This document shows positions 1 to 55,725 of a stretch of DNA of 64,000 nucleotides, in pieces (position 1 is the stretch's first letter; the number at the start of each line of letters is the position of its first letter). Source of the stretch: Prosopocoilus inquinatus (Eukaryota; Arthropoda; Insecta; Coleoptera; Lucanidae); the NCBI GenBank assembly GCA_036172665.1, contig CM069873.1, positions 40,146,001 through 40,210,000 on the forward strand, given 5' to 3'. The notes beneath the pieces were generated by a model. It had not been told where the DNA came from, made no database searches, and saw nothing but the letters and a program-made list of their open reading frames with translations. Made by a program: the position numbers and the translations under genes.

Positions 1-600
1 GGTATGAAGAGGAAGGAGAAAATTTATTGCACCGAATATTCACCACAGATGAGACTTGGGTACACCACTATACTCCGGAGAGTAAACGCGCGTCTATGGA
101 GTGGAGGAAGAAAGACGAAGGCGCGCCAGTTAAAGCAAAGGTTACAGTGTCAGCGGGGAAGGTGTTGTGTACCGTGTTTTGGGACATGAGAGGAGTAATT
201 GCGGTTGATTTTCTTACTGAACAACGAACTGTGAACGCGCAGTATTATAGTAACCTCCTAAAAAACACGGTGAAACTTGCCTACAGATTAAAACGACGCG
301 ATATGCCAATCCGCAGTGCGATATTGCTCACGATGGAAACATTGAACGAATTGGGTTGAGAAACACTGGAACACCCTCCTTATAGTCCTGATTTGTCGCC
401 ATGCGACTATTATTTATTTGGTCCATTGGAAGAAGCATTTGGCGGACTGCGATTCGAAAGCAATGTGGCGGTAGAATCCTTCGTGCGCGAATGGTTACGT
501 GACAAGCTGAGAGATTTTTACGAAAAAGGCGTGCGAAAGCTTCCGGAGAGGTGGAAAAAGTGTGTAGAGTGTGACAGAGACTATCTAGAAAAACAGTAAA
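1..600 (+). pseudogene. mariner transposase remnant, 5' truncated by the window edge
   Basis: A Tc1/mariner-superfamily DDD transposase that would cut and paste its own element at TA sites. Two pieces are visible in different frames: 27-359 holds the first catalytic block (DETWVHHYTPESK, first Asp), and 393-599 holds the last block (SPCDYYLFGPL, third Asp, then a typical C-terminal tail ending in DYLEKQ). The middle catalytic block, normally an HDNA-like motif, is scrambled by a frameshift near 300-392. The 3' non-coding end runs AT-rich to about 675. The 5' end and its inverted repeat lie outside the window. Family identity is secure from the two motifs. The copy is inactive because of the frameshift. 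Confidence 0.9.
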
Positions 601-665
601 AAAAAATTCAGCTTTGTAATTTCATAATAAATTTTTTTATAGCAAAATTCCGGTTTATATTTGAA

Positions 666-1920
666 CCACCCTCGTAGCAATTGAGAAAAGTGATCACGTG
701 ATTTGGTTTGACCACTTCGACCGTTCACTTACCGCAGCCTCAGAGTAACTCAGCGGCACTCAGTAACCATGGAAATTTTGTTGTTTTGTTTTTTTTTTAC
801 ACGCTCGTTGGTGAGATTTTGAAAGGTTCCTCGGCATTAATCAAATAGAGATTTAGGTTAGAATGCATATTTATACGTTGTTCACAAATTAGAAAACACC
901 ACCTGTTGCATTACGTTGGTATAAAACAAAAGTCCCCTATAGAATAGATAAGGTAAAAACCATGAATCTATCATAATTATTAAATTTAGAATCAGGGATT
1001 TTGTTCTAAACCGTGTTCTGAACGTATAACCTTATTGTTTATTTCATTTTATAACATTACCAATTTTGTTACTCATTTTTTAACTAGGACACTGTTGCCG
1101 GTTGTATTTTTCACAAGGCAACACCGCCAGTGGTCTTTAATTTGTGAACAAATTATATGTAATGGCGGAATGTCTCGTTTGACATTTCCGCGATGTCAGT
1201 GGAATTAATTTGTTTTTTTAGGAACGTTTTAACTCAGCAAAACACCTCAGACTAGCTGTAATTATGAACTGTCATTTACGAATGACAAACAAATTAACTT
1301 TTCTAAAGATAAATTCATATTCAATTTTTGTCTTACCTATGTATATGGCTAATATGAACCAATATTTTTCAAAATGAAATAATGACTGACCTTCATTAAT
1401 ATAAGACATCCGTAAGTGCCAATTCATAATTACAGCCACCCAGTAAAGTTCTAAGCATTATTAAATTTACTCCAAAAAATCTTCAAAATATGTAGTTTGT
1501 ATTTTACTTCTATCTCTAATTTAGGCCCTACCGGATTCCTTGGAAATTACCTCTACTTTAATTATTATCTTATTAATATAGGCTGTACTGTTAAAAAAAA
1601 TGTCGATGACGTCATCACTCTTATACAGGGTACACAAAAAAATATTATACTTCACTGTCAAGCGAACAACGTCCCATTCAAGAATATAATTAATTTATTG
1701 AATGTTTGAACAAAAATAATTACAGTTGCTTGGGCCTTTATACTCAAACAGACGGTATACAGATTTGTGAATTTTCAACAGTCAATGCTACTTATCTAAA
1801 CGATTTTATTTCCAATTTGCACTACGATGCATCTTCCAAATTGAAATACGGTGCATTATCCAACCTACTATCCAACTTGTAGTATGATTAATCGTACAAC
1901 AACAGCTAAGTGCATACACA
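666..1920. other. intergenic, no recognised gene
   Basis: AT-rich sequence without a recognisable coding region. A 70-codon open frame at 1497-1709 has AG-type acceptor-like sequences in front of it (near 1523 and 1581) and could be a relic exon. I do not recognise its product and see no supporting neighbour. Confidence 0.4.
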
Positions 1921-2211
1921 CAGAGAAAAATGAGTAGTAAAAAGTAACACAATTGTAATCAGAATGAAGACAGGACCAAATTCTAGCAGATATTCGCACA
2001 ATTGTAGAACAAAACGTTATTCTTATAAACATATAAAATAGCGACATCTTACTATCGCTTTTTGACCTAACATTGCAGTAGGATAGACAAATTGAAGCGG
2101 GATTTGCTCCTAATGAGTCCCCCATGCAAGGCGGCCATGCTTGCTGTCAAAGCATAATGAAAGATTTTAGAAAAATTTTGTGCAAATCGTTTTTGATTGC
2201 AGTGAGAACCT

Positions 2212-2274
2212 CGAGCAGCCTCTGGACAGCTGTTTCAGCCCTGCTTGGGGCTTCTTCAGCAGAAACGTAGCTCG
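2212..2274 (-). ncRNA. hammerhead ribozyme, type I
   Basis: Reads on the minus strand as stem I, core CUGAAGA, a stem II hairpin (AGCCC paired with GGGCU), core GAAA, the short stem III ACA/UGU, cleavage triplet GUC, then the other side of stem I. Predicted cleavage lies between 2225 and 2224. Full base pairing is described for the plus-strand copy at 3726-3788. Confidence 0.88.
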
Positions 2275-2523
2275 ACATTCCCACTGCAGACCAAAAACGA
2301 CTTGCCCAATTTATTTGCAAATGCGATGTAAGAATGATGAACATATAAAATAGCGACATCTTACTATCGCTTTTTGACCTAACATTGCAGTAGGATAGAC
2401 AAATTGAAGCGGGATTTGCTCCTAATGAGTCCCCCATGCAAGGCGGCCATGCTTGCTGTCAAAGCATAATGAAAGATTTTAGAAAAAATTTGTGCAAATC
2501 GTTTTTGATTGCAGTGAGAACCT

Positions 2524-2586
2524 CGAGCAGCCTCTGGACAGCTGTTTCAGCCCTGCTTGGGGCTTCTTCAGCAGAAACGTAGCTCG
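2524..2586 (-). ncRNA. hammerhead ribozyme, type I (second unit)
   Basis: Exact 312-bp repeat of the previous ribozyme, with all core positions, stem II and the GUC cleavage triplet unchanged. Confidence 0.88.
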
Positions 2587-2835
2587 ACATTCCCACTGCA
2601 GACCAAAAACGACTTGCCCAATTTATTCGCAAATGCGATGTAAGAATGATGAACATATAAAATAGCGACATCTTACTATCGCTTTTTGACCTAACATTGC
2701 AGTAGGATAGACAAATTGAAGCGGGATTTGCTCCTAATGAGTCCCCCATGCAAGGCGGCCATGCTTGCTGTCAAAGCATAATGAAAGATTTTAGAAAAAT
2801 TTTGTGCAAATCGTTTTTGATTGCAGTGAGAACCT

Positions 2836-2898
2836 CGAGCAGCCTCTGGACAGGTGTTTCAGCCCTGCTTGGGGCTTCTTCAGCAGAAACGTAGCTCG
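2836..2898 (-). ncRNA. hammerhead ribozyme, type I (third unit)
   Basis: Same core. The two-base stem III loop differs (ACA-CC-UGU instead of ACA-GC-UGU) while the three stem III pairs are kept, which is what a paired stem with a free loop predicts. Confidence 0.87.
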
Positions 2899-3147
2899 AC
2901 ATTCCCACTGCAGACCAAAAACGACTTGCCCAATTTTTTCGCAAATGCGATGTAAGAATGATGAACATAGAAAATAGCGACATCTTACTATCGCTTTTTG
3001 ACCTAACATTGCAGTAGGATAGACAAATTGAAGCGGGATTTGCTCCTAATGAGTCCCCCATGCAAGGCGGCCATGCTTGCTGTCAAAGCATAATGAAAGA
3101 TTTTAGAAAAATTTTGTGCAAATCGTTTTTGATTGCAGTGAGAACCT

Positions 3148-3210
3148 CGAGCAGCCTCTGGACAGCTGTTTCAGCTCTGCTTGGGGCTTCTTCAGCAGAA
3201 GCGTAGCTCG
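3148..3210 (-). ncRNA. hammerhead ribozyme, type I (fourth unit)
   Basis: Core and cleavage triplet intact. A single change in stem II creates one mismatch in the hairpin, and one stem I wobble pair becomes a Watson-Crick pair. It may be weaker than the other units. Confidence 0.8.
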
Positions 3211-3725
3211 ACATTCCCACTGCAGACCAAAAACGACTTGCCCAATTTATTCGCAAATGCGATGTAAGAATGATGAACATATAAAATAGCGACATCTTAC
3301 TATCGCTTTTTGACCTAACATTGCAGTAGGATAGACAAATTGAAGCGGGATTTGCTCCTAATGAGTCCCCCATGCAAGGTGGCCATGCTTGCTGTCAAAG
3401 CATAATGAAAGATTTTAGAAAAATTTTGTGCAAGAAGCCCCAAGCAGGGCTGAAACAGCTGTCCAGAGGCTGCTCGAGGTTCTCACTGCAATCAAAAACG
3501 ATTTGCACAAAATTTTTCTAAAATCTTTCATTATGCTTTGACAGCAAGCATGGCCGCCTTGCATGGGGGACTCATTAGGAGCAAATCCCGCTTCAATTTG
3601 TCTATCCTACTGCAATGTTAGGTCAAAAGGCGATAGTAAGATGTCGCTATTTTATATGTTCATCATTCTTACATCGCATTTGCGAATAAATTGGGCAAGT
3701 CGTTTTTGGTCTGCAGTGGGAATGT

Positions 3726-3788
3726 CGAGCTATGTTTCTGCTGAAGAAGCCCCAAGCAGGGCTGAAACAGCTGTCCAGAGGCTGCTCG
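3726..3788 (+). ncRNA. hammerhead ribozyme, type I (inverted unit)
   Basis: Best copy for reading the fold. Core C3-A9 is CTGAAGA at 3741-3747 and GAAA is at 3764-3767. Stem II pairs 3748-3752 with 3759-3763. Stem III pairs 3767-3769 with 3772-3774. Cleavage is after C3775 (GTC). Stem I pairs 3734-3740 with 3776-3782, including two G-U pairs, then after a small internal loop 3726-3730 with 3784-3788. All 15 core nucleotides that define active hammerheads are present; position 7 is A, which is tolerated. Confidence 0.9.
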
Positions 3789-4128
3789 AGGTTCTCACTG
3801 CAATCAAAAACGATTTGCACAAAATTTTTCTAAGTTATTCTTATAGTAATATTTATTACAATTTTGCTAATATTTGCTACAACCTGTTCCTATCTGCATT
3901 CTGACTACAGTTGTGTTACTTTTTACTATTCATTTTTTTCCTATCCTATAGAAACCAAAATTTTATCAAAAATAGTTTCACTTGGACTTCCATTATGAAC
4001 TGTACTGAAGTCACAGTAAGTTCACTGTAAACTCAGAATAAAGAAATAGGAGTATATTTTTTTAATTCCTTCATTTATAGCCCCCTAGATGGGATTATAG
4101 TTTAAATTTATACTAAATAAATCTTCAG

Positions 4129-4826
4129 ATTCACGATTAGGAGAAACTAAAAGCGCATTCTTCTCAAATGTAAATTTTAACGGTGGAGATGAAGATTATG
4201 AAGACGAGTACGAACATGACGAATATGAAGATGACGAATACGAAGATGATGATGATTCTGGTGAAGAAAACATATATTTTATTTAATTTTTTGTTAATAG
4301 TTTTATTATAGACCGCCAAATAAGTATAAGCCTAAGCTTCGATGACCAAAATGCAAGATCTACACATTCATACTATGATAAAAGCAGCAGTTACTATCAG
4401 GAATACCAATACAGTAATATTTGTGTTTAAAAATGCGTTGCTTTATGCGTTCTATCTCGAATTTTAGGATATTTACGATGCTACCAATGTTATCAATATT
4501 GTTCAAGCTACCAGGCTTATTACGAATGTAATGGTGGCAATAGTTGTTATTGCATTCCAACTCACAATCAACAAACTTCTACAAGTAAGTATTAATCTGT
4601 AAAATCGTTGAAATTCAGCAATTCATTCGTTTTAGCTTCATATGGACCTCAAAGACGTCCCGGAAATAGTTGTCAAGCATATTATATACAAGTAATAGGT
4701 AGTGGCTTAGGGTCTACTTGCGATGCTTTTTGTAAAACTATCGGCCTTGGGAAATTAATTGGAGTATGTCTTTATAATCAATGTGTTTGTGAAGCAATGC
4801 AACAATATTATTCTTATTTTGGGTAA
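4129..4826 (+). CDS. defensin-like (CS-alpha-beta) secreted peptide precursor, 3' four exons
   Basis: Four exons, 4129-4260, 4312-4413, 4468-4584 and 4636-4826 (stop TAA), join in one open frame through three introns of 51-54 bp. All introns are phase 1, with GT donors (the last is GTAAGT) and AG acceptors. The predicted chain has an acidic segment rich in D, E and Y, then a Ser/Tyr segment, then a Cys/Tyr segment (CYQCYQYC), then a C-terminal domain of about 50 residues. The final six cysteines are spaced C-x15-C-x3-C-x11-C-x4-C-x-C, the pattern of insect defensins, which act as secreted antimicrobial peptides that bind microbial membranes. The extra N-terminal cysteines are unusual. The signal-peptide exon was not found: a weak candidate exon lies at 3952-4014, and the hairpin and ribozyme insertion lies just upstream. 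Function is inferred from spacing only. Expression is unproven. Confidence 0.72.
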
Positions 4827-4917
4827 TGTCGGTTACGAGTCATAAAATAGATAACACAGAAGCATCGAATTGTCATATATAATACTGAAAATGTTGTGTA
4901 AAAACAAATAATAGAGT

Positions 4918-5036
4918 TAAGCCAAAACCAAGGCGATTGTGGGTTAAATCAGCGCCACGCATTTACACCGCCTATTTCGACCGTAGTTTTCTAGGTGGTG
5001 CGCCGATTTAACACAAGTGCTTAAGTTCTGGTCTAA
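4918..5036. repeat. imperfect hairpin, MITE-like
   Basis: Left arm GGTTAAATCAGCGCCACGC and the right arm around 4991-5018 are imperfect inverted complements. About 115 bp in all, just downstream of the defensin-like gene. No clear target duplication seen. Confidence 0.4.
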
Positions 5037-5102
5037 TTCTGGTAGTTAATAGCCAATAAACAATAATACACATATTCTCAAGAAATTACTTCGTGTTTTA
5101 AT

Positions 5103-5480
5103 TACATACATGATGAGTCGAAAAGAAAACACCACACGCCGAAAGTATACTCGTATCTTACATGTAAATATAAGACGAAAAACAAGATTATGCCGTTTGT
5201 AAATCTGCTTTTGAAGAATCGTCAACGTGATGGTTCTGTTAATTGGTCGCCAAGATCTTGAGTCTTACACCATTCACACCATTGGACTTTTATTTGTATG
5301 ACTATTTGACAAGAGAGTGTACAATGTCATCATAGATGCAGTGAATAAAAGGAAAAGAACAGAAAAAGGAAACACAAGAAAGACAATCAGGCGAGCGATG
5401 GACGATGTTCAAAAACACATCAAAGACTATGCACAAGAGAAGTATTTTTTGAAAATTAAAGTGTTGTAATTAAAAAGAAA
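5103..5480 (+). pseudogene. decayed Tc1/mariner-type transposase 3' end
   Basis: Conceptual translation around 5215-5330 gives RDGSVNWSPRS followed, after stops, by traces of the usual LDFYLYDYL block, then a KRTEKGNTRKTIRRAMDDVQ tail ending near 5467. This resembles the C-terminal catalytic block and tail of Tc3/mariner-like transposases (W-x-PRSPDL...). Stops at about 5260 and 5310 break the frame. The first catalytic block and both inverted repeats are not visible. Only the general superfamily is supported, and a more precise family cannot be given. Confidence 0.5.
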
Positions 5481-10030: not shown

Positions 10031-11455
10031 AAGCTTAAGATTTTGATTTTATTTGTTTTGTCTAAGACGTGTGTATAGGTGTCCCATTTTCGATGGTATT
10101 GAACAGGTTTCTTCATGAGTAATGGAAACAGAAAAGAACCCGGAATCTAATATTGAGTTTTAACTTTTAATGCTAATTTAAATGGTTAAATAAATATTTC
10201 GCTGTTTCTTGTTGTTTTGCGGTGCGATTGAAAAATGTAAAATTTACCAACATTTTAAATGCAAATAACTATAAATGTAACTATAATAAATTATTCGAAT
10301 TGTAATATTTGACTATTTGAAAACTGAATGTCTAATATTTAAATTATGCAAAAAATTAAAAATCTTGGGCTTTATTTGATCCACCATATCAATTATTGGT
10401 TAATATTCAACTTTTTTTTTTTACTGGTTAGAGGCGTCTGGATTATAAGACTTGCGGCATATGTTAGTTTATATTGTTTGAAATTGTTTATATAATTTAT
10501 AACGAGTGTTCGATTAAAAAGTTCGATTTTTGATAAAAGAAAGACAGGAAAATAAGCAAGTGCGCTAACAGGTTTGCCTAAATCAAACATAAATAATACG
10601 GTTTTAAATAAGTTTACAATTTCCGAAATGTTCCTTTATTTAAAGAATTGTGTAAATCTTCATAATTTTAAACATTAGTATTAACATGTAGATGTTCATT
10701 TGAGAACTAGCGGATGCAGCGTAAATTTTTATCGTATTTTACCTTGGGGACATAAAATTCAATAATATTTTCCTGTAGCTCAGAAAAAAATGGCACTCAT
10801 AATATGCACAGTTGGGTTTTCCTGTGGACTATTACGAATTTTTAAGTGATTTAATGAAGAAATCATAATCTAGTTAAAAGTTGTCCTTATCATATTTAGA
10901 TATCGGAAATATCTATAGAATGCCAGCGAAGACGAGACACTGCACAGTACAGTTCGAACGATTTGAAAACGTACAAACACTGCGAATTGCGAGATCAAGC
11001 GGACCAGTATTGTGCCGCTAAGTAATGTCAAAGTGAAAGCAGACGAAAAATTGAAACAGCATGCCATTACTTTTTACCTGTACTCATACTCGTTTTATAT
11101 GATTACTGATTACATGTACTCATTATTTATGATTACTGATTACATGTACTTTACTCATTCTCACTTTGTATGATTACTGATTACATAGACTTTACTCATA
11201 ATAAAAATATGATTACATAGTACTCGTAATCAGTACTCATACTCATGAATACAATTTGCCTAACTCTGGCATACAGCTTCAAAAAAGAATTAGAAACAGT
11301 TTGAATTTAATTATTTTTTGAGTTAGGCATGTACGTTTAACACAACCGACTATCAAGGTGCTTTGATCCCTATGATGGTATTTTGTTCATGTAACCGAGG
11401 AAAAAAATAAGTTTACCCTCTTGATCCCTAAGTATTGTTCTATCTTAGATAATAG

Positions 11456-11764
11456 TGTGGCGCGCGACTTAGCTCACTACGTCACACTGAAGGCGTCAAG
11501 GAGTCGGTCGCCGGGCTGTCTGTACCGAACAAACTCGACTTTTCCAGCATGAAACAAACGAGAAGGCAGCGTAGAATATAAAATCGGCCGGGGTGGATTC
11601 AGGAGTCATTCGAATTCTAAATAGCGATCGTCGAAGTTAGATTTAGTGTGTAAATAAATTGTTACAAATAAATTAGATTGTAAGCATTATTAAATTACGG
11701 TTAAATTTGTTACCGAATATTTTATTCGATTAAATAAATTAATTTAAACCCTAGAAACGTAACA
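11456..11764 (+). mobile_element. solo LTR (left palindrome arm)
   Basis: 309 bp, beginning TGTGGCGCGCGACTTAGC and ending in ACGTAACA (TG...CA), with the 4-bp target duplication ATAG on both sides (11452-11455 and 11765-11768). It contains a TATA-like AATATAAAATC near 11575. Internal retroelement sequence is absent, as after LTR-LTR recombination. Confidence 0.8.
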
Positions 11765-11918
11765 ATAGTTATTGTAGTCAAATTCACGATTTTGTGTCAT
11801 TCGATTTTTGGCCAGCTTTTAGGGGCAAATACCCATACGTGCGCCGTTTTTATAAAAAAATAAAAAAGGAAGTGTTGGGTTAGAAAATATCTGTTGCTAA
11901 GAAACAAATTGTCTAACA

Positions 11919-13044
11919 TGAACATATTAAATATTTTGGAACCAGAAGATTTCAGGAATTATTTAAGACTAGATTCTACACAATTTGATCACTTATTAAA
12001 TTTAGTGACTGATTGTATTAAAAAACAAAATACAGTACTCAGAGATAGTGTCAGTGCCAAACAGAGATTAGCTGTCACATTGAGGTTTCTGGCAACAGGA
12101 AACTCATATCCTGAGCTAAAGTTTAGCTGTTTAATATCCGAGTCACTTTTGTCTCGACTGAAACCTGAAACATGTTGGGCTATCTACAGATATCTAAAAG
12201 ATTATACAGGCTGTTCTTTTACTGTGTGCAAATAAAAAAACCTCAGTATAAGCACATGAAATTTACCGTACTATAGCCAAACATTTTGGAAGTTCCACTT
12301 GTTTGGAACCGTTGATATGTGTGAGAGAGAAATACCTGCAAGGTCGCAACACCTTCCTACACACCGACCCGCGCTGAGTTCCGCAGTCAAATCGATTTCG
12401 TAGCGTTCCGTAATAATAATCACCGATATCGTTTATTAATTATTTTATTTAAAATTTTAAATCACTGAGCGAAGTAATACGTTTTACGATATCAACTATC
12501 GACGAATAAGTTTCAAATTTATGCACCAATTAGGCAAGCGCCTTATAAATGTTCTTCCTTCACCCTTTTACGTAAAGAAACTTTTACTGTAATCTCGCTG
12601 CTAGCTATGAAAGTATTACTACTTACGGTCCATGGAAAAAAAGTAAATTTTTATAAGTTTATTAAAAATAATATGGAATGAGAAATTGTTTGTACCTCGC
12701 TTTTAATTTGTTCGGCAATTACGAATCGCAGCTTCTTGAATTGCACTAGATTTTAATTTAAAAATACTTAAACTTGTAATTACTTGCAGTGAAGTTAATT
12801 TAAATTGTAAACGTTTTGACCGATCAGCTGTGATCGGAGCGGCTGAGTTACGTTGTTCGTCCTCAAGAGCAAGTAACGCACTGACCCTGGTCTACTTCGG
12901 CTGCAGGTCTTAACTGAAGCGGCGGCCGCGTTCGTGAAAATCTGCCACTGCATTTTTCTCGAAAAATATTAAATTTGTGTTAAAGAACATATGAGCTCAA
13001 TCGTTGCCATTTTTACAGAGTAAAAGAACACCCTGTATAAAGGT
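11919..13044 (+). pseudogene. PIF/Harbinger transposase, first exon (left arm)
   Basis: The chain from the ATG at 11919 reads as the N-terminal helical region of HARBI1-like nucleases: EPEDFRNYLRLDSTQFDHLL, then SAKQRLAVTLRFLATGNSYP and ETCWAIYRYLKDY. The family normally continues into a DDE nuclease that, with a Myb/MADF partner, moves Harbinger elements. A TIR element at 12207-13035 interrupts the last codons. Downstream of it, AAAG followed by GTAAGTG (from 13043) looks like the original donor splice site, so this was exon 1 of a spliced gene. The DDE exon is not on this arm. Only a separate C-terminal relic exists at 38022. Confidence 0.8.
12207..13035. mobile_element. TIR element inside the Harbinger exon (left arm)
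   Basis: Inverted ends CAGGCTGTTCTTTTACTGTG and CAGGGTGTTCTTTTACTCTG, flanked by TATA on both sides (TA or TATA target). 829 bp, no recognisable coding sequence. The TA target suggests Tc1/mariner-type mobilisation. Confidence 0.75.
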
Positions 13045-13129
13045 AAGTGAAAAAAAAAAATCAATACCTAGTACAATTTTTATTCTTTATTCTTAAAGAT
13101 TACAGATTATATTGAGAGCCAGTAGTGTC

Positions 13130-14067
13130 CTACGCAAGACGTGGGAATGTTGTATTTAGCAGGTGAATGAGGTCTTGATCTTGGTCTTGGTTATGTATTG
13201 ATGGATGAGGTGACTGAGCTTCGTCATGTAGTGATTGTTGAAGTGACTTGACCTGGTGATGTGGCGATGGATAAGGTGACTGAACTTGATGTTGTGGTGA
13301 TGGATGAAATGACTGGACTTGGTGATGTGCTGATTGATTAAATGACTGGACTTGGTGATGTGGCGATGAATTGGGTGACTGAACTTGGTGAGGTGATGGA
13401 TGAAATGACTGGATTTGGTGATGTGGTGATGGCAATGGTGATGGATAAGATGATTGGACTTGGTGATGTGACGATGAATTGGGTGACTGAACTTGGTGAT
13501 GTGATGGATGAAATGACTGGACTTGGTGATGTGACGATGGCGATGGATTGAGTGACTGAACTTGGTGATGTGACGGATGAAATGACTGGACTTGGTGATG
13601 TGTTGACGCATGAAGTGACTGGATTTGGTAAACTGACGATGGACGAGGTGACTGAATGCGGTCTGATAGTAGATGTGATTGAATCAGATCACGGGGCGAT
13701 GTTGAAAAGGAAGACGAATTGGAGGTGATGCAGTATGGAGATGATAGCGTATGGAATGTCAAAGTTGATTGGCTCTGGTGGTAATGATTTATAAGATGAA
13801 CCAGGTCTATTTTCATTTGTTGATCTCAAAGCTGAATCTTCGGTGAATCTCCCAATTTTAGCATAATAAATAGCATGGGAAATAATTTTTTGTGTTACTG
13901 TTAGTGCTCTCTGGTCCAAATCTTTCAACTGCAGCCCTATTGATTTATCTAGAACTTCCCATTCATCTTCCTTCATAGACATCAGTTTTTTAGCTGAATC
14001 GAGAATGTTTTCTTGTTTCTTTGATACCGAGACTCCCTTTTTCTTTCTTTTGTTAGATACTTCTCTA
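13130..14067 (-). pseudogene. Harbinger accessory protein, 3' exon (left arm)
   Basis: Mirror copy of 14701-15637 on the opposite arm; the residue-level description is given there. The gene points toward the Harbinger transposase exon on the same arm, so the two are convergent, the arrangement usual for PIF/Harbinger elements that encode a transposase and a Myb/MADF-type DNA-binding partner. The N-terminal DNA-binding exon is absent because the palindrome centre lies immediately upstream. Three minus-strand open frames cover it in shifted phases (13130-13816, 13156-13611 and 13689-13982). Confidence 0.6.
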
Positions 14068-14257
14068 AATTAGAATTAAATTTCCAAAATACTCAAAACG
14101 GAACTAAACATTTCAAATGAAAATTTCTACGCATCCTAAATAGTCAAAACAGCAGAGACTAAGTAAAATTGTTAAATAAAAATATATTACTTATGCTATT
14201 TATTTAAATTTACAAGCTTTGCTTTCTTTTATGGAAAAGTTAAATAATTGAAGCACT

Positions 14258-14510
14258 ATCTTGTCCGATGAAAATTATTATAATACATAAGTAGTAGGAA
14301 TAGGCCGATTCTGGAACCTCCTCCGACCTTGACCAATAAAAGTCAAGGTCAAATTGAAAATTATTATAATACATAAGTAGTAGGAATAGGCCGATTCTGG
14401 AACCTCCTCTGACCTTGACCTTGACTTTTATTGGTCAAGGTCGGAGGAGGTTCCAGAATCGGCCTATTCCTACTACTTATGTATTATAATAATTTTCATC
14501 GGACAAGATA
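14258..14510. repeat. palindrome centre with Polinton-terminal sequence
   Basis: Contains two direct and one inverted copy of AGTAGTAGGAATAGGCCGAT followed by a TCTGGAACCTCCTC tract and GACCTTGACC/GGTCAAGGTC blocks. The same sequence forms the outer 100 bp of the Polinton at 37922-38021. A 60-bp spacer at about 14353-14412 duplicates the left copy. Confidence 0.8.
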
Positions 14511-14700
14511 GTGCTTCAATTATTTAACTTTTCCATAAAAGAAAGCAAAGCTTGTAAATTTAAATAAATAGCATAAGTAATATATTTTTATTTAACAATT
14601 TTACTTAGTCTCTGCTGTTTTGACTATTTAGGATGCGTAGAAATTTTCATTTGAAATGTTTAGTTCCGTTTTGAGTATTTTGGAAATTTAATTCTAATTT

Positions 14701-15637
14701 AGAGAAGTATCTAACAAAAGAAAGAAAAAGGGAGTCTCGGTATCAAAGAAACAAGAAAACATTCACGATTCAGCTAAAAAACTGATGTCTATGAAGGAAG
14801 ATGAATGGGAAGTTCTAGATAAATCAATAGGGCTGCAGTTGAAAGATTTGGACCAGAGAGCACTAACAGTAACACAAAAAATTATTTCCCATGCTATTTA
14901 TTATGCTAAAATTGGGAGATTCACCGAAGATTCAGCTTTGAGATCAACAAATGAAAATAGACCTGGTTCATCTTATAAATCATTACCACCAGAGCCAATC
15001 AACTTTGACATTCCATACGCTATCATCTCCATACTGCATCACCTCCAATTCGTCTTCCTTTTCAACATCGCCCCGTGATCTGATTCAATCACATCTACTA
15101 TCAGACCGCATTCAGTCACCTCGTCCATCGTCAGTTTACCAAATCCAGTCACTTCATGCGTCAACACATCACCAAGTCCAGTCATTTCATCCGTCACATC
15201 ACCAAGTTCAGTCACTCAATCCATCGCCATCGTCACATCACCAAGTCCAGTCATTTCATCCATCACATCACCAAGTTCAGTCACCCAATTCATCGTCACA
15301 TCACCAAGTCCAATCATCTTATCCATCACCATTGCCATCACCACATCACCAAATCCAGTCATTTCATCCATCACCTCACCAAGTTCAGTCACCCAATTCA
15401 TCGCCACATCACCAAGTCCAGTCATTTAATCAATCAGCACATCACCAAGTCCAGTCATTTCATCCATCACCACAACATCAAGTTCAGTCACCTTATCCAT
15501 CGCCACATCACCAGGTCAAGTCACTTCAACAATCACTACATGACGAAGCTCAGTCACCTCATCCATCAATACATAACCAAGACCAAGATCAAGACCTCAT
15601 TCACCTGCTAAATACAACATTCCCACGTCTTGCGTAG
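14701..15637 (+). pseudogene. Harbinger accessory (MADF/BESS-type) protein, 3' exon (right arm)
   Basis: Begins after an acceptor-like CTAATTTAG at about 14700. A lysine-rich segment precedes SMKEDEWEVLDKSIGLQLKD and TVTQKIISHAIYYAKIG, which look like the C-terminal protein-interaction region of the MADF/Myb-type partner of Harbinger transposases; such partners bind element ends and bring the nuclease to DNA. After about residue 60 the frame that continues is the overlapping one (14951-15637), built of a 10-12-residue repeat of the kind HHQVQSFHPS. A frameshift near 14960-15000 therefore probably separates the two parts. The N-terminal DNA-binding exon is missing because the palindrome centre cuts it off. 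Confidence 0.6.
15160..15560. repeat. coding minisatellite, about 30-36-bp unit
   Basis: Repeats of CATCACCAAGTCCAGTCATT and variants encode the HHQVQS-rich tail of the Harbinger accessory protein. The mirror copy is at about 13208-13608. Long open frames in other phases and on the other strand are by-products of this periodicity. Confidence 0.85.
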
Positions 15638-15723
15638 GACACTACTGGCTCTTAATATAATCTGTAATCTTTAAGAATAAAGAATAAAAATTGTACTAGG
15701 TATTGATTTTTTTTTTTTCACTT

Positions 15724-16849
15724 ACCTTTATACAGGGTGTTCTTTTACTCTGTAAAAATGGCAACGATTGAGCTCATATGTTCTTTAACACAAATTTAAT
15801 ATTTTTCGAGAAAAATGCAGTGGCAGATTTTCACGAACGCGGCCGCCGCTTCAGTTAAGACCTGCAGCCGAAGTAGACCAGGGTCAGTGCGTTACTTGCT
15901 CTTGAGGACGAACAACGTAACTCAGCCGCTCCGATCACAGCTGATCGGTCAAAACGTTTACAATTTAAATTAACTTCACTGCAAGTAATTACAAGTTTAA
16001 GTATTTTTAAATTAAAATCTAGTGCAATTCAAGAAGCTGCGATTCGTAATTGCCGAACAAATTAAAAGCGAGGTACAAACAATTTCTCATTCCATATTAT
16101 TTTTAATAAACTTATAAAAATTTACTTTTTTTCCATGGACCGTAAGTAGTAATACTTTCATAGCTAGCAGCGAGATTACAGTAAAAGTTTCTTTACGTAA
16201 AAGGGTGAAGGAAGAACATTTATAAGGCGCTTGCCTAATTGGTGCATAAATTTGAAACTTATTCGTCGATAGTTGATATCGTAAAACGTATTACTTCGCT
16301 CAGTGATTTAAAATTTTAAATAAAATAATTAATAAACGATATCGGTGATTATTATTACGGAACGCTACGAAATCGATTTGACTGCGGAACTCAGCGCGGG
16401 TCGGTGTGTAGGAAGGTGTTGCGACCTTGCAGGTATTTCTCTCTCACACATATCAACGGTTCCAAACAAGTGGAACTTCCAAAATGTTTGGCTATAGTAC
16501 GGTAAATTTCATGTGCTTATACTGAGGTTTTTTTATTTGCACACAGTAAAAGAACAGCCTGTATAATCTTTTAGATATCTGTAGATAGCCCAACATGTTT
16601 CAGGTTTCAGTCGAGACAAAAGTGACTCGGATATTAAACAGCTAAACTTTAGCTCAGGATATGAGTTTCCTGTTGCCAGAAACCTCAGTGTGACAGCTAA
16701 TCTCTGTTTGGCACTGACACTATCTTTGAGTACTGTATTTTGTTTTTTAATACAATCAGTCACTAAATTTAATAAGTGATCAAATTGTGTAGAATCTAGT
16801 CTTAAATAATTCCTGAAATCTTCTGGTTCCAAAATATTTAATATGTTCA
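15724..16849 (-). pseudogene. PIF/Harbinger transposase, first exon (right arm)
   Basis: Mirror image of 11919-13044. The coding part runs leftward from about 16849 to 16563 and is then broken by the mirrored TIR element at 15733-16561. One residue differs from the left copy (Lys for Arg after VL in the NTVL-DSVSAKQRL segment). The identical breakpoint of the TIR element in both arms shows that the insertion predates the palindrome duplication. The arm carries the same donor-like splice sequence. No DDE catalytic exon is present, so the copy cannot make a nuclease. Confidence 0.78.
15733..16561. mobile_element. TIR element inside the Harbinger exon (right arm)
   Basis: Mirror copy of 12207-13035, again 829 bp with CAGG(G/C)TGTTCTTTTACT ends and TATA flanks. 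Confidence 0.75.
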
Positions 16850-17003
16850 TGTTAGACAATTTGTTTCTTAGCAACAGATATTTTCTAACCCAACACTTCC
16901 TTTTTTATTTTTTTATAAAAACGGCGCACGTATGGGTATTTGCCCCTAAAAGCTGGCCAAAAATCGAATGACACAAAATCGTGAATTTGACTACAATAAC
17001 TAT

Positions 17004-17312
17004 TGTTACGTTTCTAGGGTTTAAATTAATTTATTTAATCGAATAAAATATTCGGTAACAAATTTAACCGTAATTTAATAATGCTTACAATCTAATTTAT
17101 TTGTAACAATTTATTTACACACTAAATCTAACTTCGACGATCGCTATTTAGAATTCGAATGACTCCTGAATCCACCCCGGCCGATTTTATATTCTACGCT
17201 GCCTTCTCGTTTGTTTCATGCTGGAAAAGTCGAGTTTGTTCGGTACAGACAGCCCGGCGACCGACTCCTTGACGCCTTCAGTGTGACGTAGTGAGCTAAG
17301 TCGCGCGCCACA
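17004..17312 (-). mobile_element. solo LTR (right palindrome arm)
   Basis: Mirror copy of 11456-11764, 309 bp, with the same CTAT/ATAG target duplication on each side. Confidence 0.8.
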
Positions 17313-17886
17313 CTATTATCTAAGATAGAACAATACTTAGGGATCAAGAGGGTAAACTTATTTTTTTCCTCGGTTACATGAACAAAATACCATCATAGGG
17401 ATCAAAGCACCTTGATAGTCGGTTGTGTTAAACGTACATGCCTAACTCAAAAAATAATTAAATTCAAACTGTTTCTAATTCTTTTTTGACGTGACCTCAC
17501 CATGACCTTAAACTTTAAGGCCATGACCTTGAGGTGACCTCGATCAAGGTCAAGATTGGAGGAGGTTCCAGAATCGACCTGTTCCTAACGTAACCGAGAG
17601 GTAACTTTGAAATGACCTTGAGGGTTCAAGGTTAAGATCGGAGAAGGTTCTAAAATTTGCTCTGTACCGATGTAACTACAAGGTTAAGGATCAAGTCAGA
17701 GGAGGTTGCAAAATCTTAATGTCATTGACGTGACCTCATCATTACCTCTAAAAGCGAGGTCAGAGGAGGGTTCCAAAAATTATCTATCCTTGACGTGACC
17801 TTAACTTGACGGAGGATCCAAAAACGGTTTATCTTGAATACGACCGTAAGGTTGGAGGAGGTAGGGACCCCCACCTAAAATCTTGT

Positions 17887-17894: not shown

Positions 17895-18046
17895 GTTCTT
17901 CATTTGGGAATAGATTCAGTTGTTACAGAACTGTGAGTTGTGTTGTTAAGTTAACACCTACCTACATACATAAAAGTAAGTTTAAATCATCTTATTGTAA
18001 TAATTTATAATTTGTATATTTTTTCCTGAAACAAAAGAGAAGGCAC

Positions 18047-18559
18047 GTGAACGATCCTTGTGACGAGGTACAGAAGAAAAGACTTCTGACTGAAAACGTT
18101 GACAAACCAAAAGAAGAAAAGCCGGATGAGCACGGTTTGAATATGCCCTCAGTTCGAAACGAGTTTCAATTTGAAATACTCTCCCAACCTTACTTCACAG
18201 ATGAAGATTTTCGTCAATGTGATACGAATGAGACAGCACCTTCCGAGATTTCAGAAGCAAGGGAGGTGACTGACGTAGATCAGTTGCCACTTTTAGCTCA
18301 AAGTGTATATTTTCTAAATAAGAGCCGTACGAAGTGGATTTGTGTCGGACTGTGTACCGAAACATTTTTTGATCCGATAATACGTATTATGGGTTCCAAA
18401 AGGCAGAGCATATCGTTTTTAGAAGAGGAATGGAAAGAATTTTGTTCTTATAACTACACTTTGAAGTCGTATTTTACTGAGAAGAAAACTATTTATCCGG
18501 TAATGAAAATCAGCTCAGTAAAGGCGTCTTTCGAACGCATCGAAGGACGAAAATACTGA
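18047..18559 (+). CDS. conserved Polinton ORF of unknown function (left copy)
   Basis: Open frame of about 170 codons; a mirrored copy of 190 codons lies at 36802-37374. The N-terminal half is charged and looks disordered. The C-terminal half has a compact motif with KWICVGLCTETFFDP and SISFLEEEWKEFC. I have no family name for it. Its position, first gene behind the terminal-repeat promoter in both repeats, suggests a transcribed early or regulatory gene; this is inference. No ATG opens the frame at its 5' end. In the right copy the frame continues upstream through an acceptor-like TATTTAACAG, so translation probably starts in a spliced leader. The left copy has a deletion of about 37 bp that removes this acceptor and may be unable to splice. 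Confidence 0.55.
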   Translation: MNDPCDEVQKKRLLTENVDKPKEEKPDEHGLNMPSVRNEFQFEILSQPYFTDEDFRQCDTNETAPSEISEAREVTDVDQLPLLAQSVYFLNKSRTKWICVGLCTETFFDPIIRIMGSKRQSISFLEEEWKEFCSYNYTLKSYFTEKKTIYPVMKISSVKASFERIEGRKY

Positions 18560-18574
18560 AATTAGAAAGAGGAG

Positions 18575-18870
18575 TGGAGACATTATATATATCTTATAAA
18601 GGTCTATTGGAACTCTGGAAATTGTGTGATATTATATTATATCGTTTAGAAGTTTTGAAAAAATTGAACTATAAATCTTGAGTGTTATGGAAAGTGATAT
18701 GAAGACAAACGTTAGGTGTGGAGACATTATTAAAGATCTATTGGAACTCTGGAAATTGTGTGATATTATATTATATCGTTTAGAAGTTTTGAAACAATTG
18801 AACTATAAATCATTCTATAGCAACATGATTCCATGCTTGAGTGTTATGGAAAGTGATATGAAGACAAACA
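18575..18870 (+). repeat. tandem duplication of about 145 bp, left repeat only
   Basis: The segment containing TCTATTGGAACTCTGGAAAT and ending in AGTGATATGAAGACAAAC occurs twice head-to-tail. The right terminal repeat (about 36650-36790) has it once. A small open frame at 18678-18920 spans the second copy; I do not recognise it. Confidence 0.85.
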
Positions 18871-19058
18871 ATTTCTTAATAATGAAATATCTGAGAAAGG
18901 AGCAATTACAAATGAATTAATGATGTTTGGAATTAGTAAATTAATTTTTGATATAAGTATGCATAAAGCTGTTAATATGTAAATGTTATGTGATTTAATA
19001 TGTTTATATTTCTAGAAAAAATTTTTGTGCAAATCGTTTTTGATTGCAGTGAGAACCT

Positions 19059-19121
19059 CGAGCAGCCTCTGGACAGCTGTTTCAGCCCTGCTTGGGGCTT
19101 CTTCAGCAGAAACGTAGCTCG
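19059..19121 (-). ncRNA. hammerhead ribozyme, type I
   Basis: Same 63-nt fold as in block 1: core CUGAAGA/GAAA, stems I-III and GUC cleavage triplet all intact on the minus strand. Confidence 0.87.
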
Positions 19122-19671
19122 ACATTCCCACTGCAGACCAAAAACGACTTGCCCAATTTATTCGCAATTGCGAACATATAAAATAGCGACATCTTACTAT
19201 CGCTTTTTGACCTAACATTGCAGTAGGATAGACAAATTGAAGCGGGATTTGCTCCTAATGAGTCCCACATGCAAGGCGGCCATGCTTGCTGTCAAAGCAT
19301 AATGAAAGATTTTAGAAAAAATTTGTGCAAATCGTTTTTGATTGCAGTGAGAACCTCGAGCAGCCTCTGGACAGCTGTTTCAGCCCTGCTGAAGAAGCCC
19401 CAAGCAGGGCTGAAACAGCTGTCCAGAGGCTGCTCGAGGTTCTCACTGCAATCAAAAACGATTTGCACAAATTTTTTCTAAAATCTTTCATTATGCTTTG
19501 ACAGCAAGCATGGCCGCCTTGCATGGGGGACTCATTAGGAGCAAATCCCGCTTCAATTTGTCTATCCTACTGCAATGTTAGGTCAAAAAGCGATAGTAAG
19601 ATGTCGCTATTTTATATGTTCGCAATTGCGAATAAATTGGGCAAGTCGTTTTTGGTCTGCAGTGGGAATGT

Positions 19672-19734
19672 CGAGCTACGTTTCTGCTGAAGAAGCCCCA
19701 AGCAGGGCTGAAACAGCTGTCCAGAGGCTGCTCG
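19672..19734 (+). ncRNA. hammerhead ribozyme, type I
   Basis: Complete plus-strand copy. A further plus-strand copy at about 19388-19450 lacks the 5' side of stem I because of the inversion junction. Confidence 0.87.
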
Positions 19735-20108
19735 AGGTTCTCACTGCAATCAAAAACGATTTGCACAAATTTTTTCTAAAATCTTTCATTATGCTTTGAC
19801 AGCAAGCATGGCCGCCTTGCATGGGGGACTCATTAGGAGCAAATCCCGCTTCAATTTGTCTATCCTACTGCAATGTTAGGTCAAAAAGCGATAGTAAGAT
19901 GTCGCTATTTTATATGTTTATATTTCTAGATATGACACTGTCAGTTATAAATAAAATTTTCTAAGAACATTGTTTGATCCTTTATTTAATAAACTAACGA
20001 TACTTAACCAAAAAATTAAGAGAAATTTTTACGCTATATAAAGATAAGCAGTTAGTATCGAAGTAGTACACATGTAACATCGTTGACTGTTAGAAAGAAA
20101 AGCCATAA

Positions 20109-20930
20109 ATGCGACGTCGTGTCAAAACAGATTACACTGCGAGAAGCACCTTAAAACGAAAAGGTCGTGGTTTACTTAATACGTTAATTAATAAACTACC
20201 AGTAGAGTTACACTTACCAGGTTACAATTACTGCGGTCCGGGCACAAAATTAGACGTTCGACTTAAAAGAGGAGACAGAGGTGTGAATGCGTTGGATGAG
20301 GTGTGCAAGCAACACGATATCGCATATTCTGTAAGTAGCGATTTAGAAAAACGTCACGAAGCAGATAAAAAATTGTATCAAGCGGCAGTGAAAAGAGTGA
20401 AGAGTACAGAAGCGGGATTTGGTGAAAAAGCATCTGCGTTATCTGTAGCCGCCTTAATGAAAGCTAAGACAAAGCTTGGAATGGGAAACGGAGTGAAGAG
20501 AAAGCGTAGTAAACGGAAGAAGCGTGGTGGTAAATTATCACTTCGACAAGCTGTAAGGAAAGCTCAACATGCAATTTCACGTAATGGTAACAAGAGTCTG
20601 TTAGAAAATGTGAAATTGGCGCAGGCTGTTTTAAAGAAGGACCACAAGAAAATAAGACCTCCACGTCAAAGAGTGATACCAATTCCTAAGAGATGAGGGT
20701 TTTTACCTTTAATTCCATTATTTGCGGCTTTGGGCGCAATAGAATCGCTCGGCGGCGGTGCAGCTGCAATTGCTAAGGCGGTAAACGATGCAAAAGCTGC
20801 GAAAGAGCAACTGAAAGAGGCAGAGCGACATAATCGCGCTATGGAAACAAAAGCAGTGGGAAGCGGATTCTATATAAAACCTTACAAAACCGGGTGTGGG
20901 TTATATTTACGATCCAATCCAAAAAACTGA
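20109..20930 (+). pseudogene. PLA2-domain capsid protein (left copy, one premature stop)
   Basis: Homologue of the PLA2-type proteins of Polintons and adintoviruses, thought to help virions breach membranes. The calcium-loop motif YNYCGPGT is at residues 39-46 and the catalytic His-Asp pair, in CKQHDIAYS, at residues 69-70. A very basic segment (KRKRSKRKKRGG) follows at about residue 135. In this copy a TGA at 20694-20696 ends the frame. The Gly-rich hydrophobic segment and the GSGFYIKPYKTG tail follow in the same frame to 20930. The right-hand copy at 35495-36316 has a Gly codon at that position and is open. The residue before NALDE is Val here and Gly in the right copy. Confidence 0.82.
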
Positions 20931-21301
20931 AATATTTGCCTCGGCGACCGTTGACTAACATTGACATACTGAAATATGCTAAAATATGGAAATTACCTTT
21001 CTTTCGAGGTGTGTTTATGAGAGATACTTTATCTAAAAAGATATGGAAGCATGAAAGTGGAGTAGTGAATTTAGATAGCGATTCTGGTGAAGGAACGCAT
21101 TGGGTAGCATATTATAAGAGAAGAGGAATCGTAAAATATTTTGACAGCTATGGACATCTACGACCTCCAGTTGAAGTAGAGAAATATCTTTTGTCGAACG
21201 GATTGGGAGTTATTAATTATAATTATGAAAGGTATCAGAAACAAAATACACAAAATTGTGGACACTTATGTCTACAGTTTTTAAAGTCCTTTACAAGTTA
21301 A
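20894..21301 (+). CDS. adenain-like cysteine protease, capsid maturation (left copy)
   Basis: Adenovirus-type protease of Polintons, which cleaves capsid precursor proteins during assembly. Visible catalytic residues: His69 in GTHWVAYYK, Asp84 in YFDSYG, Cys122 in TQNCGHLC, with a Gln just before as oxyanion residue. LTNIDILKYAK at about 20-30 is the usual N-terminal start of the conserved part, so the first 15 or so residues, which overlap the end of the PLA2 frame, may not be native. 135 codons, unbroken. A second copy with a few substitutions lies in the right repeat. It sits directly between the PLA2 and penton genes on the same strand. Confidence 0.85.
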   Translation: MWVIFTIQSKKLKYLPRRPLTNIDILKYAKIWKLPFFRGVFMRDTLSKKIWKHESGVVNLDSDSGEGTHWVAYYKRRGIVKYFDSYGHLRPPVEVEKYLLSNGLGVINYNYERYQKQNTQNCGHLCLQFLKSFTS

Positions 21302-21323
21302 GTAAGGATGTAGTACTTGAAAG

Positions 21324-22058
21324 ATGGTCAACATGGAATCTTCACCCGTTGCGTGTACGTTCACTCTTACGGGAACTGAATCAGTTTTATTTTGTGAATT
21401 GAATCCACCACTATACCTCGATGAAGACGCAACATATGAAATGTGCTTGTTAAATTTTGAAACGTTTAATGCAATACCTAACATAGATGAAAGTAATAAT
21501 TTGATACATTATGAAGAAACAGGAAAAACGACGGTTTGGAAAACTGTCGTTATACCTACAGGTACATATGAACTAGACGATATCAACCAATATCTGAAAG
21601 ATTATTTTCAAAATAACAATATCCCTGATTATATAAACATTAAAGGAAATAATAATACTTTAAAGGCAACCATACACAGTTCGGTTAAGCTCGATTTTAG
21701 TAAACCAAATTCATTGGGAAAATTGTTGGGTTTTAAACCGAGAACGTTGAAAGTAAACGATAATAACATTGGTGATTTTCCGATGGAAACAAATAAAGTA
21801 AATGCTATAAGAATAGAATGTAATCTAATCGGTGGATCTTATGACAACGGAGAACCCGGTCATGTTTTGTATCATTTCTTTCCAAATGTACCTCCAGGGT
21901 TTAAAATAATAGAATCCCCTCTTCAAGCTATTTATCTTCCAGTGAACGTGAACGTGATTACGAGAATAGTTATTCGACTATTAGATCAAGAGAATCGGTT
22001 AGTTAATTTTAGAAACGAAGTAATTACTCTAAGACTTCATTTGAGAAGATTCACATAA
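21324..22058 (+). CDS. penton-like minor capsid protein
   Basis: 244-codon intact frame starting 23 bp after the protease stop. The sequence has beta-rich composition, with NPPLYLDEDATYEMCLLNF near the start and repeated aromatic/Asn segments, and occupies the place of the single-jelly-roll penton gene of Polintons and adintoviruses, which forms the capsid vertices. Identification rests on position, size and general likeness and not on a catalytic motif. The first 30 or so codons are duplicated at 35007-35101 because the terminal repeat ends inside this gene. The ATG at 21324 matches the repeat copy. Confidence 0.75.
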   Translation: MVNMESSPVACTFTLTGTESVLFCELNPPLYLDEDATYEMCLLNFETFNAIPNIDESNNLIHYEETGKTTVWKTVVIPTGTYELDDINQYLKDYFQNNNIPDYINIKGNNNTLKATIHSSVKLDFSKPNSLGKLLGFKPRTLKVNDNNIGDFPMETNKVNAIRIECNLIGGSYDNGEPGHVLYHFFPNVPPGFKIIESPLQAIYLPVNVNVITRIVIRLLDQENRLVNFRNEVITLRLHLRRFT

Positions 22059-22184
22059 TGATTATTTACGATAGCAATTATTCGAAACAGAAAGAGTGTA
22101 GCAGAATTAGACGTAATGTATTATTTAAACCACGGAAACAGATACTGAACTATTGTCGACAAAAAAAACTGCGTAGAGGGAAGA

Positions 22185-23225: not shown

Positions 23226-23263
23226 ACCGTGAATGGCAGTATTAACAGAGAAGCTAAAGCTAT

Positions 23264-25465: not shown

Positions 25466-25473
25466 TATAAAAG
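25466..25473 (+). promoter_or_regulatory. TATA box of the Ser/Thr/Pro-rich gene
   Basis: TATAAAAG about 30 bp upstream of TCGAATAAACTCACA. A GTAAGTGC donor follows at about 25526 and an acceptor-like GCATGCTAG at about 25689, next to the ATG at 25693. This suggests a spliced leader. Confidence 0.6.
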
Positions 25474-27954: not shown

Positions 27955-28022
27955 TAGAGTATTGCGTTTGGTAAAGAGGAAATTTATAACGTGTTGTAAG
28001 GAGCAAAAATATTATTTTAAAT

Positions 28023-34992: not shown

Positions 34993-35006
34993 GGCCTTGA
35001 CCTTGA

Positions 35007-42471: not shown

Positions 42472-42718
42472 AACAGATAAAATAGCGACATCTTACTATC
42501 GCTTTTTGACCTGACATTGCAGTAGGATAATAAATAATAAATTAATAAAGAATAAATTGGGCAAGTCGTTTTTGGTCTGCAGTGGGAATGTCGAGCTACG
42601 TCTCTGCTGAAGAAGCCCCAAGCAGGGCTGAAACAGCTGTCCAGAGGCTGCTCGAGGTTTTCACTGCAATCAAGAACGATTTGCACAAAATTTTTCTAAA
42701 AAAAAAAATTTTTCTATA
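42472..42718 (+). mobile_element. retrozyme-like insertion, single unit (block 3)
   Basis: 247 bp, one incomplete unit, flanked by the perfect 12-bp direct repeat GTTATTTTGTTA (42460-42471 and 42719-42730). Starts AACAGATAAAATAGCGAC and ends in A-rich TTTTTCTA-type sequence, as in block 1. It lacks the middle of the unit (GCGGGATTTGCTCC to ATTATGC) but keeps the ribozyme. It lies in the putative intron of the pogo transposase gene. Confidence 0.85.
42592..42654 (+). ncRNA. hammerhead ribozyme, type I
   Basis: Full core CTGAAGA/GAAA and GTC triplet. One stem I base differs (GTCTCTG instead of GTTTCTG), replacing a G-U by a C-G pair, so pairing is kept or improved. Confidence 0.88.
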
Positions 42719-55235: not shown

Positions 55236-55725
55236 TGATCAATAGATTAAACAGCGACATTTTACGATCGCTTTTCGACCTGACTTTGCCGTGAAATAAA
55301 CAAATTGAAGCCAGTTTGCAACATAAGCTATTCCATGCAAGGTGGCCATGCTTGCTGTAAAAGCATAATGAAAATTTCGAAAATTGTGTGGTAAATCGTT
55401 TTTGATTGCAGTGGATCTCATTATGCTGTGACAGCAAGCATGGCCGCCTTACATGGAATAGCTTATTATGTTGCAAACTGGCTTCAATTTGTTTATTCCA
55501 CTTCAAAGTCAGGTCGATAAGCGATCGTAGGATGTCACTGTTTAATCTATTGATCACTATCACATCCCAATTGCGAATATACTTGGACAAGTCGTTTCGG
55601 TTTGCAATGGAGCTCTCGTCTTGAGCTGCGCTTCCGCTGATGAAGCCCCAAGTAGGGCTGAAACAGCTATACGGAGGCTGCTCGGGAGATCCACTGCAAT
55701 CAAAAACGATTTGCCACACAATTTT
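55236..55725. mobile_element. retrozyme-like insertion, diverged subfamily (block 4)
   Basis: 490 bp, about 20-25 percent diverged from blocks 1-3 by eye. Minus-strand partial unit, inversion near 55417, then a nearly complete plus-strand unit. Direct repeat CGAAGATATTAAG at 55223-55235 and 55726-55738 (9-13 bp depending on where the unit ends). Starts and ends correspond to those of the other blocks (AACAGCGAC; GCCACACAATTTTC). It lies in the large intron of the CIDE-N gene. Confidence 0.82.
55623..55683 (+). ncRNA. hammerhead ribozyme, diverged copy
   Basis: Core CTGATGA (55637-55643) and GAAA (55660-55663), with the same stem II. Stem I is GCTTCCG paired with CGGAGGC, compared with GTTTCTG/CAGAGGC elsewhere, so both sides changed together. 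Stem III is ACA/UAU with one mismatch and the cleavage triplet is ATA, so activity may be reduced. Confidence 0.85.

Follow-up and report, generated by a model that had tools for sequence, protein, structure and literature searches.

How does a 312-bp repeat that carries a hammerhead ribozyme motif move through a genome? The question is raised by positions 2028–3433 of the window—the whole 64-kb stretch of DNA analysed here, C5:40146001-40210000 in a 650-Mb, 173-contig assembly, which was the one assembly analysed—where such a repeat lies in tandem with a period of 312, 4.5 copies, and 98% matches. The original prediction was of a retrozyme-like element rather than an inert satellite, and this is supported by target duplications, fixed starts, shared template letters, and the many dispersed places at which the repeat is found. 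The reading put forward, at a probability of roughly 75%, is that the repeat is a non-autonomous retrozyme of the non-LTR kind and that Penelope-type machinery reverse-transcribes its ribozyme-strand RNA, which is probably circular, priming on both strands of the cut target and starting each at a different RNA site. The evidence for how the repeat moves lies in its inverted arrays, which have two fixed and different ends. Phase 1 of the unit is set at window position 2028 on the + strand, and all phases are counted from there.

The ribozyme occupies the minus strand of the direct copies, opposite the direct array, and the ribozyme-strand unit reads GAGC-UAC-GUUUCUG-CUGAAGA-AGCCC-CAAGCA-GGGCU-GAAA-CAGCU-GUC-CAGAGGC-U-GCUC. 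Under a strict descriptor, the type I core (CUGANGA / GAAA / NUH, three helices, open at stem I) is complete in eight of the nine window copies listed in Table 1, and the same descriptor finds no match in 60 first-order resampled 64-kb windows against the eight in the real one. The prediction of nine full cores therefore holds for eight; the ninth retains CUGAUGA and GAAA (core at 55636-55671, +) but is damaged at its triplet and beside the cut. Two extra partial copies lack the 5′ part, that at 3428 being without CTG and that at 19388 without the stem I strand. Stem I, as predicted, has 7 bp, which a UAC/U internal loop separates from the outer helix, and loop II consists of six bases. Stem III closes on the self-complementary palindrome ACAGCUGU, for which only two pairs and an AGCU tetraloop are judged sterically reasonable, not the 3-bp stem with a 2-nt loop that had been proposed. 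This short palindromic stem suggests that the ribozyme perhaps acts as a dimer. In the predicted circular folding, the outer helix continues as a long rod, and predicted folding is better on the ribozyme strand than on the other strand (z of −4.3 versus −1.9).

Table 1. Coordinates of the repeat insertions and hammerhead copies in the window.
Feature	Position	Strand	Remarks
Left target-site duplication GTTATTCTTATA	2016..2027	.	direct reading and scoring; present also at duplicate locus L043
Direct arm, phases 1-312 four times then 1-158	2028..3433	+	
Hammerhead copy 1	2213..2273	-	RF00163, 23.8 bits; expected cut between 2225 and 2224
Hammerhead copy 2	2525..2585	-	RF00163, 23.8 bits
Hammerhead copy 3, stem III loop variant ACACCUGU	2837..2897	-	RF00163, 18.9 bits
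Hammerhead copy 4	3149..3209	-	only RF02275, 14.2 bits
Inverted arm, phases 229-1 then 312-140	3434..3833	-	2-bp overlap at junction
Hammerhead copy 5, in inverted arm	3727..3787	+	only RF02275, 16.4 bits
Right target-site duplication GTTATTCTTATA	3834..3845	.	direct reading and scoring
Second insertion, +138-299, +1-218 / -289-1, -299-1	19010..19918	.	
Hammerhead copy 6	19060..19120	-	strict descriptor
Hammerhead copy 7	19673..19733	+	strict descriptor
Third insertion, +1-58 / -288-138	42472..42701	.	AT-rich filler at junction
Hammerhead copy 8	42593..42653	+	strict descriptor
Fourth insertion, +6-177 / -133-6, -311-145	55246..55725	.	older, 80% identity
Hammerhead copy 9, damaged	55623..55683	+	AUA triplet, C-A mismatch adjoining cut
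Fourth-insertion duplication CGAAGATATTAAG	55223-55235 and 55726-55738		

At gathering thresholds, Rfam returns no match in the whole 64-kb window. Relaxed scoring covered 1900–4000, so that the best window score seen, 23.8 bits, refers to that part; all five copies there lie below the cut-offs, which are 34 for RF00163 (matching three of them) and 52 for the related model RF02275 (matching the other two). The same scan yielded matches to MIR8742, MIR172, and mir-210, all below gathering scores and all sitting in the inverted-arm hairpin at 3359–3577; these were rejected and are taken as artefacts of the inversion. Across the whole genome, there are 27 RF00163 matches, seven of them above the cut-off, although L048 and L049, both among the seven, are apparently a single place that has been duplicated. 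Resemblance to the unit at the ribozyme is seen in 25 of the 27, mostly over short stretches in the best-scoring ones, and one match above the cut-off (L046, 36.3 bits) clearly belongs to the same family as the repeat. Two hammerheads lying 502 bp apart (L065 and L066, at C11:6366955 and 6367457) apparently belong to another, longer repeat family that is partly similar to the unit.

Among 30 related hammerheads (29 distinct), pairing covaries with a score of 0.287, versus 0.180 ± 0.015 when shuffled; none of 500 shuffles scored as high, and slid controls reached at most 0.129. Two of five covariation measures are not above shuffles (111/500 and 83/500), the first of these being the pairs changed on both sides, which number 9 of 19 with none in stem III. 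In the alignment used, 11 of the 30 rows have one core base fewer and the gap was placed at A9, which causes the first pair of stem II to be misread in them. A covariance-model search had been proposed as the check on the hammerhead, with sub-threshold scores for all copies as the outcome that would count against it. That outcome is literally what the window copies give, but same-genome relatives pass and the pairing covaries.

The four repeat blocks that had been predicted are all present (Table 1), and each joins arms of opposite orientation. In the second, a 19-bp word is common to 18998–19016 and 19912–19930, overlapping each element end by 7 bp; the third has no clear duplication, the longest word common to its flanks being 5. 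Window bases 1–5312 and the copy at 55246–55725 recur, 100% identical and at about the same offset, ~8.40 Mb further on C5, and this recurrence is either a very recent segmental duplication or an assembly duplicate.

Beyond the window, two genome scans gave 277 and 5249 candidate places, of which 40 in each scan were scored. Matches at 43 loci with the best unit matches, 27 hammerhead loci, and the window were chained into 116 clusters; 54 shorter than 200 bp, seven touching a locus end, and five duplicates were dropped, leaving 50 insertions. Inverted array pairs make up 47 of the 50, with phases rising inward and the 3′ ends of the ribozyme-strand RNA pointing outward, and the opposite inverted sense occurs in none of the 50. 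In 39 insertions, one outer end falls no more than 12 from phase 1 and the opposite one close to phase 138 (125–156). Where both ends could be classed (41 insertions), only two have matching ends, and one of these (L035) has three arm switches; the other nine of the 50 have an end outside both classes or no inverted arm. Target duplications of 12–13 bp, taken as the longest shared flank word, flank 26 of the 50. A shared word of at least 10 bp is found in 33 (versus 10 of 981 shuffled flank pairs) and is missing from 17. Divergence exceeds 5% in ten insertions, and six of these ten keep the two-end rule. The original description of a dispersed tandem repeat is correct as to the 312 period and the many places, but it missed that the arrays are inverted and that their two outer ends are fixed and unlike each other.

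The best-match loci were found with one unit read from phase 1, a procedure that favours phase-1 ends and arms reaching about phase 289. A retrieval-neutral recount was therefore made of 17 insertions that contain a full inner unit together with 14 at which that search had not been aimed (30 in total, one being in both), and here 21 have one of each end, two have two alike, and seven have an unclassed end. The pattern resembles that of fresh DNA copies, with synthesis starting at two fixed sites on a single kind of RNA strand, once from each side of the target. No LTR pair is found in their architecture, the targets are AT-rich as judged by eye, and an A or T run stands at the outer end in a few (such as L013, L015, and L041) but not generally.

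Two individual insertions share a site. Both are young (L007 778–1812 and L011 1355–1795) and differ in internal structure, yet they occupy the same TAATTTATTACC in two host-repeat copies with 7–11% divergence between them; either the site was hit twice independently or conversion took place. A separate insertion of the repeat (L072 2006–2467), with a TAGTAACTTTTACC duplication, adjoins a host gene for a GIY-YIG protein, presumably SLX1.

This anatomy bears directly on two readings in which no RNA is copied. An inert satellite amplified by recombination, with the hammerhead as a relic, would suit the tandem direct copies and the sub-threshold Rfam scores of the window copies, but it is contradicted by target duplications around dispersed single insertions, as well as by the fixed outer ends and the shared template letters; it was rejected and is scarcely credible. 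Foldback-type DNA transposons, in which long inverted repeats made of subrepeats are moved by a transposase, are likewise inverted arrays with target duplications, and the insertions resemble them to that extent. The two ends of the insertions are, however, unequal (phase 1 and ~138), and their exact positions vary by several bases, while arm length, laps, and junction vary so widely between insertions that most look newly made from a 312-nt template. A foldback origin is accordingly rejected as highly improbable.

What, then, is the template? Young insertions (at least 95% identity, n = 40) include 37 with one arm junction, which provide 74 inner arm ends. None of the 74 lies within 6 nt of the ribozyme cut and 113 unit pieces cross it, and hence a linear ribozyme-cut monomer was rejected as the template on account of these inner ends. 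Arms longer than one lap account for 28 of the 74, the longest extending to 7.9 laps. Inner ends fall at phases 285–296 in 29 of the 74, near the palindrome ATTTGCAAAT (286–295) and often with TTTA-like filler; in the less biased 17 insertions the figure is 8 of 30. These phases appear to be a stopping and joining place, with the pile-up being partly a retrieval effect.

Subfamily letters were compared at seven sites, with 137, 289, 294, and 307 dropped from a first 11 as lying at starts or junction ends. In 154 of 197 site groups, the common letter is present throughout, and in 23 a minor letter is (1.8 expected); only 20 groups are mixed, against 66.9 expected and a minimum of 56 in 1000 shuffles. 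Between plus and minus arms, compared at 11 sites, letters agree in 223 of 256 cases (shuffled mean 190, maximum 203), and where the arms include a minor letter they agree in 26 of 59, more often than in shuffles (13%) but by no means consistently. Such uniformity within an insertion is what repeated copying of one small template would give, and a small circle explains the laps and the shared letters most simply.

The same dual-priming insertion could instead use an uncut or partly cut multimeric transcript as its template, with the ribozyme a by-product or serving another step. Multi-lap arms would arise from an uncut multimer too, and one array (L020) is a mixture of two subfamilies, with one foreign-subfamily unit inside it. 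In addition, an anole Penelope element with an inactive hammerhead was inserted unaffected in vitro, unprocessed RNA being the main substrate in the accessible account (PMC11167929), and for this reason both circle and cleavage may be dispensable for insertion. Against the multimer stand the 177 of 197 site groups with a single letter throughout, as well as the covariation of the ribozyme pairing, and a multimeric template is considered possible but doubtful.

Which enzyme performs the copying is suggested by a second element of the same genome. GIY-YIG domains (PF01541) give at least 150 genome matches above the cut-off (150 of 2232 candidates were scored), many of them arranged as minus-then-plus pairs. 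A common score of 33.4 is shared by 130 of the 150, open frames extend up to 788 aa, and one frame holds both RVT_1 (52.4 bits) and GIY-YIG (29.9 bits). This abundant element is, by its domain content, a Penelope-like element; its fetched copies are near-identical (mostly 97–100%), and it carries its own small hammerhead motif before the open reading frame (CTGAAGATGGTAACTTCGTTACCGAAATACGTATT). A few of the 150 matches are not this element, namely the host-like gene at L072 and another Penelope family at L073, L075, and L076, giving at least two Penelope families in the genome. In the second family, two of the three loci bear a different small hammerhead-like motif, CTGATGAAGCAATAAATACATTGCGAAA.

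From approximately 39 inverted Penelope pairs visible among the matches listed, 30 were picked before their ends had been seen, and 29 were usable. All 29 have one short end, 80–89 nt after the start of the hammerhead core, and one long end, 116–129 nt after it; were each end chosen freely, such a result would have a chance of ~2 in 10^9 by the authors' arithmetic. Three earlier pairs agree or nearly so, with L080 (79, 123) and L083 (82, 128) fitting and L071 (92, 123) coming close. Flank words of 11–16 bp are common to both sides in 29/29 pairs, a length overstated where some words overlap the element ends, and only 1 of 830 shuffled pairs reaches 10. The short and long starts lie either side of a predicted hairpin.

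The repeat obeys the same one-of-each rule with its own two starts. Sequence kinship with the Penelope 5′ region was rejected: a suggestive gapped match was equalled by 141 of 300 shuffles, and no significant similarity was found. As no shared start-site sequence was found, the link between the two is one of insertion anatomy only, and with at least two Penelope families present the Penelope partner is a candidate. In the predicted RNA fold of the repeat, phase 138 falls where the strand is unpaired (rank 6 of 312 windows), while phase 1 is less clearly unpaired (rank 44) and lies 2–3 nt after a hairpin in some subfamilies. A stem of phases 17–32 with 296–309 was dropped from consideration, many subfamilies folding another hairpin instead.

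Another conceivable mover is a LINE-type enzyme with twin priming. Twin priming by L1 also produces inverted junctions, with a 3′ end that is fixed and an opposite end that varies, whereas both outer ends here are fixed start sites. With an A/T run at the outer end only in few insertions, and the Penelope element of the same genome showing the same rule in 29/29 usable pairs, a LINE-type mover is quite improbable.

Under the preferred reading of Penelope-type copying of a retrozyme RNA, five steps can be envisaged. The motif and the literature suggest that arrays would be transcribed on the ribozyme strand, that the type I hammerhead would cut at the 198/197 phase boundary, possibly acting as a dimer, and that a host ligase would close the 312-nt monomer to a circle. 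From the insertion anatomy, a Penelope-type RT/GIY-YIG enzyme would then cut AT-rich-looking DNA with a stagger of ~12 bp, and both target strands would prime on RNA of one and the same kind, one strand from the internal site at phase 1, the other from ~138, with copying running for part of a lap, one lap, or several. Two cDNAs of the same polarity would finally meet head to head and be joined at short palindromes or AT filler, the outcome being an inverted array between target duplications.

Animal non-LTR retrozymes are described in the available text of Cervera and de la Pena (2020; PMC7229834) as type I hammerhead repeats of 170–400 bp, with insects among their hosts; Penelope or LINE enzymes are proposed for them, and Penelope-like elements are called only a 'strong candidate' helper. 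The repeat is like them in unit size (312), type I hammerhead, tandem copies, target duplications of more than 4 bp, and co-existence with Penelope-like elements. It departs from the direct tandem repeats of that description in forming inverted arrays with two fixed, different starts. By description only, newt and salamander hammerhead repeats (330–350 bp) in the same source also share its weak stem III and palindromic tetraloop; dimeric action is a feature of those repeats and for the present one is only inferred. As excerpted, a guide (PMC8969392) suggests that animal retrozymes could be a new type of SINE, possibly dependent on Penelope elements. Plant LTR retrozymes, in the portions available (PMC4918200, PMC7761336), are similarly non-autonomous ribozyme-bearing retroelements thought to use RNA circles, but they differ in having a type III ribozyme, LTRs, and 4-bp duplications.

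For Penelope elements themselves, the accessible part of PMC11167929 reports that the purified protein of Poseidon from the anole cuts and extends both target strands, prefers AT-rich DNA, and starts internally at two RNA sites that are not homologous to the cut DNA. No start-site difference between the two strands was seen there for the anole enzyme, a result that neither contradicts nor states a rule of one of each per insertion. In Adineta vaga, Penelope copies lie head to head with palindromic junctions, their duplications measure 8–10 bp or are absent, and the 'tail' carried by one of the inverted repeats was explained in 2013 by self-priming on an antisense template (PMC3846280, in the extracts available). 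The repeat matches the elements of these two sources in its head-to-head inverted copies, palindromic junctions, AT-rich-looking targets, two internal reverse transcription starts ('tail' present or absent), and hammerhead near the starts. Its starts are 137 nt apart, against ~40 in the Penelope elements, and its duplications are 12–13 bp long, against the 8–10 bp or absence in Adineta. Unlike them, it has no RT or GIY-YIG gene that could be seen and no sequence similarity was found. For the Penelope head-to-head structure, the strict pairing of short and long ends in 29/29 usable pairs fits separate priming of both target strands on sense RNA better than the self-priming of 2013.

Animal retrozymes and the proposal that Penelope elements help them are thus already known, and the two-end rule adds structural support for that help while giving a hint of the enzyme by which such animal repeats are moved. 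In the portions of the literature available, which was thin on subscription papers, no report was found of inverted retrozyme insertions or of strict end pairing. A wider proposal, held at slightly better than even odds, is that Penelope enzymes insert by an obligate two-site rule, with each cut target strand starting at a different internal RNA site (a short and a long end per inverted insertion), and that animal retrozymes are SINEs of Penelope, an idea that PMC8969392 had already raised, imitating the two-site layout by RNA shape, not sequence, as minimal ribozyme-bearing circles.

The window holds other mobile or duplicated DNA. Several genes in the stretch 18011–37395 look virus-like and are taken to be of the Maverick/adintovirus type, and the end regions of this stretch are inverted with respect to each other (19907–21418 versus 35007–36520, 98%). 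There are also a fragment presumed to be of a mariner-like transposase and other open reading frames assumed to derive from transposons, which together suggest an insect genome. A near-perfect 3-kb inverted duplication (99.8%), containing open reading frames, is located at 11279–17489 with its centre at ~14.4 kb.
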